A stretch of DNA of 64,000 nt, from the NCBI GenBank assembly GCA_035709005.1, contig DASTFB010000083.1, forward strand, positions 1 to 64,000, written 5' to 3'. A program made the position numbers and the translations under genes. This DNA is from Candidatus Methylomirabilota bacterium (GTDB lineage Bacteria > Methylomirabilota > Methylomirabilia > Rokubacteriales > CSP1-6). Under the pieces are notes generated by a model. It had not been told where the DNA came from, ran no database searches, and worked only from the letters and a program-made list of their open reading frames with translations. How positions within the stretch are numbered: position 1 is the stretch's first letter; each line of letters opens with the position of its first letter. This document shows positions 13,674 through 22,284 of this stretch, one piece after another.

Positions 13674-14591
13674 GTGCGCATTCGGGTCCTCGGCTCGGCA
13701 GCAGGGGGCGGAGCGCCGCAGTGGAACTGCGGCTGTGGAAACTGCCGCGGCCTGCGCCAGGGGACGGTACGGGCGCAGCCGCGCACGCAGGAATGCGTGG
13801 CCGTCAGCGCCGACGGCGACGCGTGGTTTCTCCTCAACGTCTCGCCGGAGATCCGAGCCCAGATCGAGAGTTTTCCTCCGTTGCACCCGCAGGCGGCGCG
13901 GCATTCCCCCATCGCCGGCATCGTGCTCACCAACGGTGACCTCGATCACTGCCTGGGCCTGCTGTCGCTCCGCGAGTCGTACCCGCTGACGGTGTACGCG
14001 ACCGATCGCGTGCGGCGCGGCTTCACCGAGGACAATGTCCTCTACCGCACCCTGCAGCGGTTCGACGGGCAGGTGATCTGGCGGGTGCTGAAGTTCGGCC
14101 ACGAAGAAGAGATGACGGCATCGGGCCGGCCCACCGGGCTCGTGCTGTCCGCCCTCGCCGTCCCCGGCAAGCTGCCGATCCACCTGGAGGGGCGTGTACC
14201 CCCCGATCCCGAGGACAACGTGGTCCTGCGCATTCGGCAGTCGGCAACCGGGCGCACGCTGGCCTACGCTTCCGCGGTGGGCGCGGTGACGCCGGCCGTG
14301 CGTGCCGCACTGGCCGGGGCGGACTGCGTATTCTTCGATGGGACGTTCTGGTCCAGCGACGAGCTACCCGTGCAGGGGCTCGGCACCAGTCGGGCCGAGG
14401 ACATGGCCCATGTGCCGGTGGGAGGGCCGCAGGGCAGCCTGGTCGCGCTGGGGGCGATGCCGGGGACGCGGCGAATCTTCATCCACATCAACAACACCAA
14501 CCCGTTGCTTCGCGAGGACTCGCCGGAACGGCTGGCGATCGTCGCGCAGGGCTGGGAGCTCGCCTTCGACGGCATGGAGATCGTGCTATGA
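13674..14591 (+). CDS. pqqB: PqqB, PQQ biosynthesis metallo-hydrolase-fold protein
   Basis: A 305-residue metallo-beta-lactamase-fold protein. It has the N-terminal VLGSAAGGGAPQWNC with the structural zinc cysteines CGCGNC, the modified metal motif TNGDLDHCLGL, and the C-terminal FIHINNTNPLL, all typical of PqqB. PqqB has been shown to act as an iron-dependent hydroxylase on the tyrosine-derived precursor. It starts at GTG 13674 with a TATCAT box at 13658-13663, 10 nt upstream, that could give a nearly leaderless transcript. The stop overlaps the pqqC ATG. Confidence 0.95.
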   Translation: MRIRVLGSAAGGGAPQWNCGCGNCRGLRQGTVRAQPRTQECVAVSADGDAWFLLNVSPEIRAQIESFPPLHPQAARHSPIAGIVLTNGDLDHCLGLLSLRESYPLTVYATDRVRRGFTEDNVLYRTLQRFDGQVIWRVLKFGHEEEMTASGRPTGLVLSALAVPGKLPIHLEGRVPPDPEDNVVLRIRQSATGRTLAYASAVGAVTPAVRAALAGADCVFFDGTFWSSDELPVQGLGTSRAEDMAHVPVGGPQGSLVALGAMPGTRRIFIHINNTNPLLREDSPERLAIVAQGWELAFDGMEIVL

Positions 14592-15325
14592 GCGAGGCCT
14601 CACCGCGCCCGCCGCTCTCGGCGGACGCCTTCGTGGAATGGCTGCGCCGCGAGGGCGAGACACGGTATCACGACCATCACCGCTATCACGTGCTGATGCA
14701 CGACGGGAAGCTCACCCGGCTCCAGCTCCAGCAGTGGGTGCTCAACCGCTACTACTATCAGACCCGGGTCCCCATCAAGGACGCGATCATTCTCTCCCGG
14801 TCGGAGGATCCGGCCTTCCGGAGGATGTGGATCCGGCGCATCCATGATCACGACGGTGACGAAGCGGGGGCGGGCGGGCTCGAGCTCTGGCTCCGGCTGG
14901 CCGAGGGGGTCGGGCTCGACCGCGAGGAGGTCGCGAGCTGCCGCGCGGTGCTGCCCGGTGTGAGGTTCGCCTGCGATGCCTACGTCGCGCTGGTGCGCGA
15001 GCGCAGCCTGGTCGAGGCGGTAGCGTCGTCGCTGACGGAGTTCTTCGCCCCCGATCTGATGACCCGGCGGGTCCTGGCCTGGGAGCGCCACTACCCATGG
15101 GTCAGCCGCGAGATGCTGGAGTACTTCCGATCTCGGGTGCCTCGGGCCCGACGCGATTCCCAGGAGGCGATCGACTTCGTCGCCCGTCACGCCACGACCT
15201 ACGAGTTGCAGGCCCGCTGCGTGGCGGCGCTCGTCCGGAAGACGGAGATCCTGTGGCACCTGCTGGATTGCCTGTACGCGGCCTACATCGAGCCGGGCTG
15301 GGGGCCGGCGGGTGGGCGGGCATGA
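14588..15325 (+). CDS. pqqC: PqqC, pyrroloquinoline-quinone synthase
   Basis: A 245-residue haem-oxygenase-fold, cofactorless oxidase that performs the last ring closure and oxidation of PQQ. Conserved segments are YHDHHRYHVLMHDGKL near residue 25, VLNRYYYQTRVPIKDAIIL, RIHDHDGDE, and the late active-site region FVARHATTYELQ. Length matches characterised PqqC. ATG 14588 overlaps the pqqB stop; the end overlaps pqqD as ATGA. Confidence 0.95.
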   Translation: MSEASPRPPLSADAFVEWLRREGETRYHDHHRYHVLMHDGKLTRLQLQQWVLNRYYYQTRVPIKDAIILSRSEDPAFRRMWIRRIHDHDGDEAGAGGLELWLRLAEGVGLDREEVASCRAVLPGVRFACDAYVALVRERSLVEAVASSLTEFFAPDLMTRRVLAWERHYPWVSREMLEYFRSRVPRARRDSQEAIDFVARHATTYELQARCVAALVRKTEILWHLLDCLYAAYIEPGWGPAGGRA

Positions 15326-19775: not shown

Positions 19776-20332
19776 TCCGCGCCGCCGCGGTCGCCGCGGC
19801 GCTGGTCGTGGCCGGGCCCGGCCGCGTCGCCGCCGGCGACGCGCTGTGGGACGTGTTGAAGGCGGGTGGCCAGGTCGTGCTGCTTCGCCACGCGACCACC
19901 ACGCCCGGTGCCGGCGACCCTCCCGGCTTTCGCGTCGAGGACTGCGGGAGCCAGCGCAACCTCAGCGAGGAAGGGCGGGCGGAGGCCCGCCGGCTCGGCG
20001 CCGCCTTTCGGGCCCGCGACATTCCCGTCGGGCAGGTGCTCTCCAGCCGCTTCTGCCGGTGCCTGGAGACGGCGCGGCTAGCCTTCGGGCGGGCCGAGCT
20101 CCACCCTCCGCTGGACAACCTGATTCACGATCGCCGCCGTGAGCCCGAGCGCGCGGCCGCCATCCGCGCCCTGGCCGGTGAGCCTCCGCCCGCCGGCAAC
20201 CTCGTCATCGTCACCCACGGTGTCAACATCGCCGCCGCCATCGGCCTGCATCCGGCGCAGGGAGAGATGATCGTCATCACTCCCCGCGGCAATGGAGCCT
20301 TCCAGGTCCGCGGCCGGATTCCGCCGCCCTAA
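19772..20332 (+). CDS. histidine phosphatase superfamily protein, exported
   Basis: A 186-residue phosphoglycerate-mutase-like protein with a short N-terminal signal-like segment (residues 3-21). The catalytic His is in LLRHATTTPG; a second His is in VIVTHGVNI. The stretch DCGSQRNLSEEGRAEARRLGAAF is typical of SixA-like or uncharacterised periplasmic histidine phosphatases. GTG 19772 overlaps the previous stop. Its TAA overlaps the stop codon of the convergent OsmC gene by two bases. The substrate is unknown. Confidence 0.83.
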   Translation: MIRAAAVAAALVVAGPGRVAAGDALWDVLKAGGQVVLLRHATTTPGAGDPPGFRVEDCGSQRNLSEEGRAEARRLGAAFRARDIPVGQVLSSRFCRCLETARLAFGRAELHPPLDNLIHDRRREPERAAAIRALAGEPPPAGNLVIVTHGVNIAAAIGLHPAQGEMIVITPRGNGAFQVRGRIPPP

Positions 20333-20796
20333 GTCTCCTCCTCCACCTCGCCGTCCCATTCGATGGCGATCCCGCGCTGGACCGACTGCGAGGCGGGACA
20401 GCCCTTCTCGTGCACCTCGATGGCCCGGCGGGCGTCATCAGCCTTGCCCGGGGGCACGCGGACCTTGTAATGGACTTTGATGCGCGTGATCAGGGGACGG
20501 CCGTCCACGTTCTCGATGAACCCCTCGGCGTCGGCCTGCAGCCGATCGGGCTGGGTGGGGATCTTCCGGGCCGCCAGCGCACCCGCTAGCGTGCCCGTCA
20601 TTCAGCCGGCGACCGCGGCGATGATGTGGTCCAGCGTCGTCGGTTGCTCCTCCTCGGGCTCGACGCCGTAGAACGCCTTGACCCCCCCGTGGAGGCCGTA
20701 AACCACCGGCTCGGCGAAGGGCGCGATGTAGGCGCGGCGGCGGGGGCCCTTGTCCTTCACAATGCGGACCCGCGAGACGTGCAGCACGTCACCCAT
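20329..20796 (-). CDS. OsmC family protein with in-frame TGA: probable selenoprotein
   Basis: Read through one TGA (20602-20604), this is a complete 155-residue OsmC-family protein. Residue 65 is the TGA-encoded position in TLDHIIAAVAG-[U]-MTGTLAGALAA, exactly where OsmC/Ohr proteins have their first reactive Cys (AxxxCxxxTL). The second conserved Cys is present as Cys133 in EKGCPASQSV. The codon before and the ATG after the TGA are in one frame, and both halves are typical OsmC sequence. The ATG at 20796 has AAAGGAG 6 nt upstream; the second half has no ribosome-binding site of its own. A SECIS-like hairpin follows the TGA. The expected role is thiol/selenol reduction of organic hydroperoxides. 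A nonsense mutation is the alternative. Confidence 0.82.
20567..20597 (-). promoter_or_regulatory. candidate bacterial SECIS element in the OsmC gene
   Basis: On the transcript, nucleotides +5 to +9 after the TGA (CGGGC) pair with +31 to +35 (GCCCG). After one bulged A, CGCUAGC (+11 to +17) pairs with GCUGGCG (+24 to +30), including one G-U pair, and leaves the apical loop GGGUGC. The first loop base is therefore 17 nt past the TGA and the loop begins GG, as in SelB-binding bacterial SECIS hairpins. The stem has 12-13 pairs. Confidence 0.72.
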
Positions 20797-20823
20797 TGAA
20801 GGCTCCTTTCGGGAGGTTCGGGC

Positions 20824-22284
20824 TCAGCCCCGGGAGGATACGACGCCCGGCTTGGCGACCGCGCTGGTCTTCGTCCGCTCCCCGCTCACGCTTCCCCGCT
20901 CTTCGTGCCACAGCAACGGCAGGGCGAGCAAGGGCAGGAGCCCCAGCATGCCGACGACGATCATGAGCTGCCCGAGGTTCGAGTAATCCTGCTGCGTGAC
21001 GTTGAAGAATTCGTTGAGGTACTGGGTGAAGAGCTGGCTGGCCGACAACGCCAGGTTCATCAGCGAGGCCATGATGGCGAACATGGTGGCTTCGGCGCCC
21101 CGGGGGGCCGTCTTGGCGATGAGCACCAGCATCGGCACCATCGTGAGCTGGGCCAGCGGCGCCGAGATCGTGGTGTCGATGAAGGCCAGCGTGCGGGCGC
21201 TGATGCCCAGCCACGTGTGCAACCCGTAGAAGAGACCGATGTTGGGCAGGTAGAGGATGGTCCCGGCGATGACGACCCACAGCAGGGTGAAGCTCACCGG
21301 GCGCGTGACGATCGTCTTGCGGAAGACGAGGAGGCCGAGCAAGCTCAGCACCGAGCCGACCTGGGCCAGGATGCCGAGGAACTTCTGATCGAAGCCGAGG
21401 CCGTCGACCGCCCAGTAGCTGTACCCCTGGCCCACGCCGGGCGTGGCTCGAAAGAGGAAGATCACGATGGAGGCCACGGCCACCCCCCGGGAGATCCCGA
21501 CCTTCTGGAGCAGCAGCCCGATGAGCACCATCGAGACGACGAGCACGATCTCCCGCGAGAACGCGACCTGCAGCGTCTCCAGGGCCACGCCGAACGCGGC
21601 GTAACAGAGACCGACCACCAGGACCAGCCGCGCCTTGCCGCTGCTCAGTGGGCCAGCCCGGTCGGCAGCCGGCGCCACCACCCGGGATGGCCGTCTGCTG
21701 CGTAGCGGCAGGACCAGGCTCAGCGCCACCAGCAGGGGCAGCACGGTGGCCACGGCGAACGTCGGGCGAGAGCCGATGGTGCCGGCCAACCAGCCGGACA
21801 GGTAGCCGACGCTGATGCCGCCGAGCAACAGGGCCATGCGACCGAGCGTCTGGATCTGACCGATCTCCTCGTCCGTCTCGGCCACTTCCACGCTCAGGGC
21901 ATCGGCGACGACGTCCTGCACCATGAAGCCGACGGTCACGAGCAGGCCGGCCACCAGGTAGGCGGCCTTGGTATCGACGCTGGTGGCCAGCAGCCCGTAC
22001 CCGGTCAAGCTGAGCCCACCCCCGAGCAACAGGTAGGCCGTGCGGCGGCTTCCCAGCAGGGGGTAGACGTCGGAAGCCACGCCGGCAACCATCTTCATGG
22101 ACCACGGCAGACTCAACCAGAACGCGATCCCGGCGGCCTCGGCCGGCGTCAGCTTGAGGACATCCTTCTGGAAGAAGAGCTCGGCCACCCCTGTCACGAC
22201 GCTGGCGCCGTAACAGAAATAGGTCATCAAGATCGGAGTCCAGGCGAGACGAAAACCGCCGAGCATTCCTCGCACTGTCCCCAT
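20824..22284 (-). CDS. MFS/BT1-like multi-pass transporter
   Basis: A 486-residue protein with about twelve membrane segments. The stretch FWLSLPWSMKMVAGVASDVYPLLGSRRTAYLLLG strongly recalls the folate-biopterin transporter (BT1) branch of the major facilitator superfamily, where an inner PW-K-x-x-x-G-x-x-S-D motif is conserved. GFMVQDVVADALSVEVAE continues this pattern. The open reading frame begins at ATG 22284. It lies 27 nt downstream of the OsmC gene's ATG in map order, with that gene downstream of it in transcription. The substrate is unknown. Confidence 0.8.
   Translation of the reverse strand: MGTVRGMLGGFRLAWTPILMTYFCYGASVVTGVAELFFQKDVLKLTPAEAAGIAFWLSLPWSMKMVAGVASDVYPLLGSRRTAYLLLGGGLSLTGYGLLATSVDTKAAYLVAGLLVTVGFMVQDVVADALSVEVAETDEEIGQIQTLGRMALLLGGISVGYLSGWLAGTIGSRPTFAVATVLPLLVALSLVLPLRSRRPSRVVAPAADRAGPLSSGKARLVLVVGLCYAAFGVALETLQVAFSREIVLVVSMVLIGLLLQKVGISRGVAVASIVIFLFRATPGVGQGYSYWAVDGLGFDQKFLGILAQVGSVLSLLGLLVFRKTIVTRPVSFTLLWVVIAGTILYLPNIGLFYGLHTWLGISARTLAFIDTTISAPLAQLTMVPMLVLIAKTAPRGAEATMFAIMASLMNLALSASQLFTQYLNEFFNVTQQDYSNLGQLMIVVGMLGLLPLLALPLLWHEERGSVSGERTKTSAVAKPGVVSSRG

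Follow-up and report, generated by a model that had tools for sequence, protein, structure and literature searches.

The window (the whole stretch of DNA analysed, 64,000 nt) carries on its minus strand two open frames that meet end to end, in the same frame, at a TGA codon (Table 1). An earlier sequence-only reading had proposed that the two join into one full-length OsmC protein, with the TGA exactly at the first catalytic Cys and with Cys133 intact. When the TGA is read as selenocysteine (Sec), a protein of 155 residues is obtained whose only U is residue 65, in the context AVAG-U-MTGTL, and a profile search matched PF02566 to residues 50-147, covering both halves, at 48 bits (cut-off 27.5). 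The best sequence relative with a solved structure was the OsmC of Thermus thermophilus (1ukk, E 5.4e-9), and in this alignment the TGA column falls on the first redox Cys and Cys133 on the second, as had been proposed. An AlphaFold model of the window protein had a pLDDT of 84.9, and OsmC/Ohr chains topped the list in structure comparison (Z to 11.9, rmsd 2.2-2.5 over 106-110 residues). The profile score, the fold and the two redox positions (U65 and C133) place the protein in the OsmC superfamily (PF02566). That automatic callers would report fragments was also foreseen, and the ORF list does give the downstream half (20329-20601) as a separate 90-aa ORF.

The transporter-like ORF upstream perhaps forms one operon with the OsmC gene; an ORF of this kind was common to 3 of the 66 homologous loci described below, the nearest relatives only. 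At 13674-15325 the window carries ORFs resembling pqqB and pqqC and then a pqqE-like frame, which we take to be a PQQ biosynthesis cluster. A tRNA scan of the window found none.

Table 1. Features of the locus in the window, and of related genes and selenocysteine machinery on other contigs of the same genome (G000; C, contig)
Feature	Position	Strand	Details
OsmC-family selenoprotein gene, predicted	20329..20796	minus	155 residues with Sec65; start ATG 20796-20794, stop TAG 20331-20329
In-frame TGA read as Sec (residue 65), predicted	20602..20604	minus	alignment column of first redox Cys of OsmC
Cys133, second (putative resolving) Cys, in EKGCPASQS	20398..20400	minus	from alignment
Asp56	20629..20631	minus	aligned to Glu of NPEE in OsmC 1ukk; proposed partner of peroxidatic residue
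Shine-Dalgarno-like AAAGGAG	20803..20809	minus	direct reading; 6 nt upstream of ATG
Putative bSECIS hairpin	20567..20597	minus	lower stem 5 bp, bulged A, upper stem 8 bp
Hairpin loop GGUG	20583-20580	minus	GGGUGC 20584-20579 when closing G-C counted as loop
Rare Leu codon CTA, upper stem	20587..20589	minus	4/560 Leu codons in 11 likely genes of window
Transporter-like ORF	20824..22284	minus	486 aa, many hydrophobic segments; co-directional, upstream, 27 nt before OsmC start
tRNA-Sec	C64:6481-6574		68.9 bits, cut-off 47
SelA	C64:7883-9235		596 bits, above family cut-off
SelB	C94		361 bits, above family cut-off
SelD	C87		336 bits, above family cut-off; one in-frame TGA of its own
L216, UxxT OsmC, predicted Sec, AFULMT	C124:27321-27725		153.6 bits, over NF041052 cut-off
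L217, Sec at second Cys, predicted, RSRUPLYRT	C71:201063-201338
L215, U[TV]SxT-like, predicted Sec, LGSUTSMT	C77:70021-70332

The hairpin that the sequence-only reading had described after the TGA was recovered: its 13 bp (8 + 5) are interrupted by a single bulged A, and a G-C pair closes the tetraloop GGUG; the spacing from the TGA is 17 nt when counted to GGGUGC, as in that reading, and 18 nt when counted to GGUG. The limits for a bSECIS given in the available text of PMC13188914 are a loop of 3-9 nt, an upper stem of 4-16 bp, a G in the first two loop bases, a spacing of 16-37 nt and an MFE of at most -7.5, and the window hairpin lies within them (loop GGUG, 8 bp, spacing 18, -26.9 kcal/mol). 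None of 400 synonymous-codon shuffles folded as well (mean -14.4, sd 2.8 kcal/mol); the signal was much weaker when a broader stretch of 71 nt was shuffled by dinucleotides (z -1.71, 14/200 as good). A perfect stem of at least 6 bp, topped by a loop that begins with G and spaced within the limits, was present in 112 of 113 distinct sequences, compared to 33.3 expected from synonymous shuffles, and in 6 of 27 Cys-type OsmC controls.

Codon usage within the stem follows the same pairing. At the two stem Leu positions of the window clade CTA was used in 35 of 59 cases, compared to 3 of 187 at the other Leu positions of these genes; CTA pairs Watson-Crick where CTG would leave a G-U. In the Bacillales both stem Ala codons are GCG in 19/19 (background 25/225) and the stem CTG is present in 19/19 (background 19/126), and the hairpin stem has 80% G+C when the genes themselves have 46%. 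Such a choice of stem codons is explained only by RNA structure. In the window clade the hairpin codons were not exceptionally conserved at synonymous sites (39/128 windows were as low), folding of the whole 45 nt was only mildly better than that of shuffles in several clades, and judged by stem length alone many single sequences fail to beat 95% of shuffles. An Rfam scan of the 64-kb window at the gathering threshold gave no match. The distance of the loop from the UGA is ~17 nt in the window clade and ~19 nt in the MM clade; ~26 nt is the value for the MY/F clade and also for much of the Leu and Bacillales clades. As these distances differ by clade, the signal has therefore shifted inside a conserved protein segment, and the shifted registers bear on how an RNA signal can move within conserved coding sequence.

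Homologous places were found at 66 positions in 58 of the 95 genomes searched at class level, and a phylum-level search covered the same number of genomes with the same 58 positive. When translated individually, 65 of the 66 have TGA at the VAG-U column; one (L071) carries an extra TAG upstream of the conserved TGA. The exception, L070 (G024 C204, about 1444-1656), is a perfect match up to the residue before Sec and then continues with TGT and unrelated sequence; either the gene was truncated or rearranged precisely where recoding takes place, or the contig was joined there in assembly.

In a second collection, of named genomes, TGA was at the same column in all 80 of the best 80 of 222 relatives. 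These best 80 of 222 comprise, by record title, Bacillota (20), Rokuibacteriota (14), Methylomirabilota (10), Thermodesulfobacteriota (9), Nitrospinota (6), Myxococcota (6), Acidobacteriota (5), Tectimicrobiota (2), Hydrogenedentota (2), Armatimonadota (1) and 5 with no phylum, several relatives being binned contigs for which the label in the title may be wrong. The Bacillota relatives include RefSeq (NZ_) records of named strains, and cultured Bacillales are among the carriers, for example Bacillus sp. SG-1 (L148), Mesobacillus persicus (L123) and Fictibacillus solisalsi (L129). No match was found in a plasmid collection by tblastn at E 1e-8.

Pooling of both sets, which partly hold the same contigs and of which the second is the best 80 of 222, gave 145 places, with 122 distinct proteins among them. 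Four positions show no variation in these 122/122: Thr54, Asp56, the Sec column and Gly68. Cys133 is likewise present in all of the 119 that reach its column, and residue 40 is K or R in 113/122, with other residues in the rest. Among 21 same-clade relatives the mean pN/pS, computed with the 13 hairpin codons left out, was 0.31 before and 0.32 after the TGA; purifying selection is equal on both halves.

The sequence-only reading had made the proposal depend on Sec machinery in the genome, and tRNA-Sec, SelA, SelB and SelD are all present in that of the window (4.59 Mb, 134 contigs, 95% complete; Table 1). The match to the tRNA-Sec model, which also gives weak matches in control genomes, lies 1.3 kb from SelA on one contig.

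Taken alone, the window shows two fragments, which could be those of a decaying pseudogene or of a gene split by a sequencing error, and 2 of the 66 places look damaged (L070, which ends at the Sec codon, and L071, with its extra TAG). However, the same codon, and only TGA, is found in many phyla, and a PF02566 search in 40 relatives, with stops counted by hand, gave 88 OsmC places with one TGA in 61, no stop in 27 and TAA or TAG in none. Decay, a possibility that the sequence-only reading had itself raised, is not what the relatives in the phylum reveal, as they share the TGA (65/66) without frameshifts, and selection is as strong after it as before. A pseudogene or error is contradicted by these conservation data and can be given almost no weight. 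Conservation of the TGA without decay, together with equal selection on both halves, therefore almost certainly marks the gene as that of a selenoprotein.

The codon directly after the TGA in the window is ATG, as it would be if translation terminated at the UGA and re-initiated at the AUG, yielding two proteins from one message. This was rejected as extremely improbable, since the residue at that position is Leu in 43 of the 122 distinct relatives (codons CTG, CTC, CTT or CTA) and since re-initiation would cut apart the OsmC domain and both redox residues. No supporting point was found for UGA as a sense codon genome-wide, for example for Trp, and such a reassignment is scarcely credible: it is contradicted by genes ending in TGA in the same genome (the Cys-type OsmC genes L218 and L219) and in the same family (L019 and L028), and SelA and SelB have no internal stop. 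The stop-split OsmC gene thus almost certainly encodes one whole protein, with the stop codon predicted to be read as selenocysteine. Frame, TGA column, hairpin, selection, machinery and fold were each computed for the window gene; on this basis read-through of the TGA at residue 65 would be expected, and the product is, with very high probability, a selenoprotein.

Published OsmC-like selenoproteins date back to 2005, when they were described from the Sargasso Sea with the motif UxxT (PMC1088965). An OsmC-like selenoprotein of PF02566 in the GOS set also has UxxT (PMC2398784), and Table 1 of a selenoprotein review, in its available text, has one PF02566 entry, again UxxT (PMC13188914). The sequence-only reading had mentioned such proteins from marine metagenomes, which is borne out by these reports; it had also taken the window gene as support for that family, but the published family is UxxT and the window gene belongs to a different subfamily. 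According to the same review text, differing Sec motifs or positions mark distinct subfamilies (PMC13188914), and the motif here is UxxG, with Gly instead of Thr three residues after Sec in all 122 distinct proteins. The window protein scores 23 bits with NF041052 (OsmC_like_Se), below the curated cut-off of 95, and of ten relatives eight matched this model at 16.3-27.3 bits and two had no match at E 0.1. NF041052 presumably represents the 2005 family, judging from its UxxT motif.

Common to the window protein and the marine type are the fold of OsmC, Sec in place of the first redox Cys, a retained second Cys and a bSECIS after the UGA, but the window protein differs from the marine/NF041052 type in its UxxG motif, its score below the cut-off and its placement on a separate, well-supported branch. 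On sequence grounds the UxxG branch is best regarded as a variant, with a different motif, of a kind known since 2005. Compared to the OsmC of E. coli and Thermus (1nye and 1ukk) the fold (Z 11.2-11.3) and both redox positions are alike, but theirs has Cys where the window has Sec, and the window protein reaches 34.8 bits with the OsmC peroxidase model TIGR03562, under its cut-off of 85.8. The Ohr model TIGR03561 gave no match to the window protein at E 0.1; Ohr is alike in fold (Z about 10) and in the carboxylate before the first redox residue, but has Glu where the window has Asp, and a clear catalytic Arg was not located in the window protein. The UxxG subfamily, its spread to Bacillales and any OsmC in which Sec takes the resolving position were not found in the papers searched; a groundwater study, cited in the available review text for a Methylomirabilota genome with 63 predicted selenoproteins (PMC13188914), could already contain these genes.

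A paralog scan with a profile from A1 recovered 11 of 62 loci, and the places were therefore translated directly. Of the 88 OsmC places in the 40 genomes, 27 have Cys, 45 have Sec at the first Cys and 16 retain the first Cys and have Sec at the second. Those with Sec at the first Cys fall into the window family (19), a U[TV]SxT-like group (16), the NF041052 kind (8, of which L243 is a divergent member) and 2 others. Two places, L232 (G010 C96, LATUMTTT) and L227 (G091 C19, GAIGAUKLST), have TGA at the first Cys and lie outside the four main Sec groups. The window's genome itself has seven OsmC genes, four with a TGA and three without. L216 is probably of the type described in 2005; L217 and 15 similar places (16/88), with the motif RUPLYRT, form one tree branch; and L215 with 15 similar places (16/88) makes up a group that ends in CPVHRT. 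Hairpins were better than shuffles on average in all Sec groups, a modest signal (mean z -1.31 to -1.60).

In a tree of 88 rows and 109 columns each group formed one branch, with support of 99/99 for the window family, 100/100 for the NF041052 group, 99/99 for the second-Cys group and 94/86 for the U[TV]SxT group. Five changes between Sec and Cys are needed on this tree, four of them forced by well-supported branches; with few columns and several long branches the deep joins are unsafe, and the root and the direction of change are not fixed. It seems somewhat probable that the OsmC superfamily has been a repeated target of Sec recoding, with at least four Sec subfamilies in one phylum, one of them at the resolving position, and that the window subfamily, for which no Cys ortholog was seen among the places in the phylum and the best 80 of 222 relatives in the second collection, may be Sec-obligate across several phyla, its bSECIS having moved to three places with the protein sequence unchanged. 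Paralogs of one fold with Sec at the attacking or at the resolving position offer a natural comparison of the role of selenium at each site.

With regard to function, the window gene fairly likely encodes a Sec-containing OsmC-family thiol peroxidase, in which (organic) hydroperoxides would be reduced by the selenol with Cys133 as the resolving residue. SelB with Sec-tRNA-Sec would bind the hairpin, which lies 17 nt downstream of the UGA, and Sec would be inserted at residue 65, the peroxidatic position, read-through giving the 155-residue protein. The selenolate, aided by Asp56 and basic residue 40, would attack the hydroperoxide, Cys133 would resolve the selenenic acid to a selenenyl sulfide, and re-reduction of the enzyme would fall to a thiol donor. 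The thiol donor of Ohr is dihydrolipoamide. Substrate, resolving step and reductant are proposed here for the window protein. Catalysis in Ohr/OsmC involves an Arg and a Glu next to the peroxidatic residue, and the Arg of Ohr is mobile, according to the available text of PMC5962072; the K/R at position 40 may stand for this mobile Arg.

An OsmC-fold selenoprotein with a role other than hydroperoxide reduction, in which Sec65 and Cys133 would act in disulfide exchange or in electrophile or selenium/arsenic chemistry, is possible and the less likely of the two. It is suggested by the score far under the curated OsmC/Ohr peroxidase models, by the catalytic Arg not identified in the window subfamily and by an OsmC-like protein that, in the available text of PMC4069020, has no thiol peroxidase activity. 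Against such a role, neither the two redox positions nor the carboxylate vary in the subfamily, and in four relatives the subfamily gene adjoins that of a peroxiredoxin with FYRGRWUPYC. Because automatic callers break such genes in two and the standard OsmC selenoprotein model misses the subfamily, peroxide-defence capacity would be under-counted in soil and groundwater bacteria and in cultured Bacillales. As cultured relatives exist, the prediction is directly testable.

Gene context says little about function: no conserved peroxide-defence neighbour was found at the window-type locus, a point against the peroxidase reading, and the upstream transporter-like ORF is confined to the 3 of 66 loci named above. 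The four loci with the peroxiredoxin-like frame (FYRGRW-TGA-PYC) next to the window-type gene are those of a sister clade (L028, L029, L042 and L043). Some of these also have a UxxT OsmC, making up a small cluster of redox selenoproteins, and in three genomes (G047, G049 and G051) the window-type gene has a UxxT OsmC no more than about 1.5 kb away.
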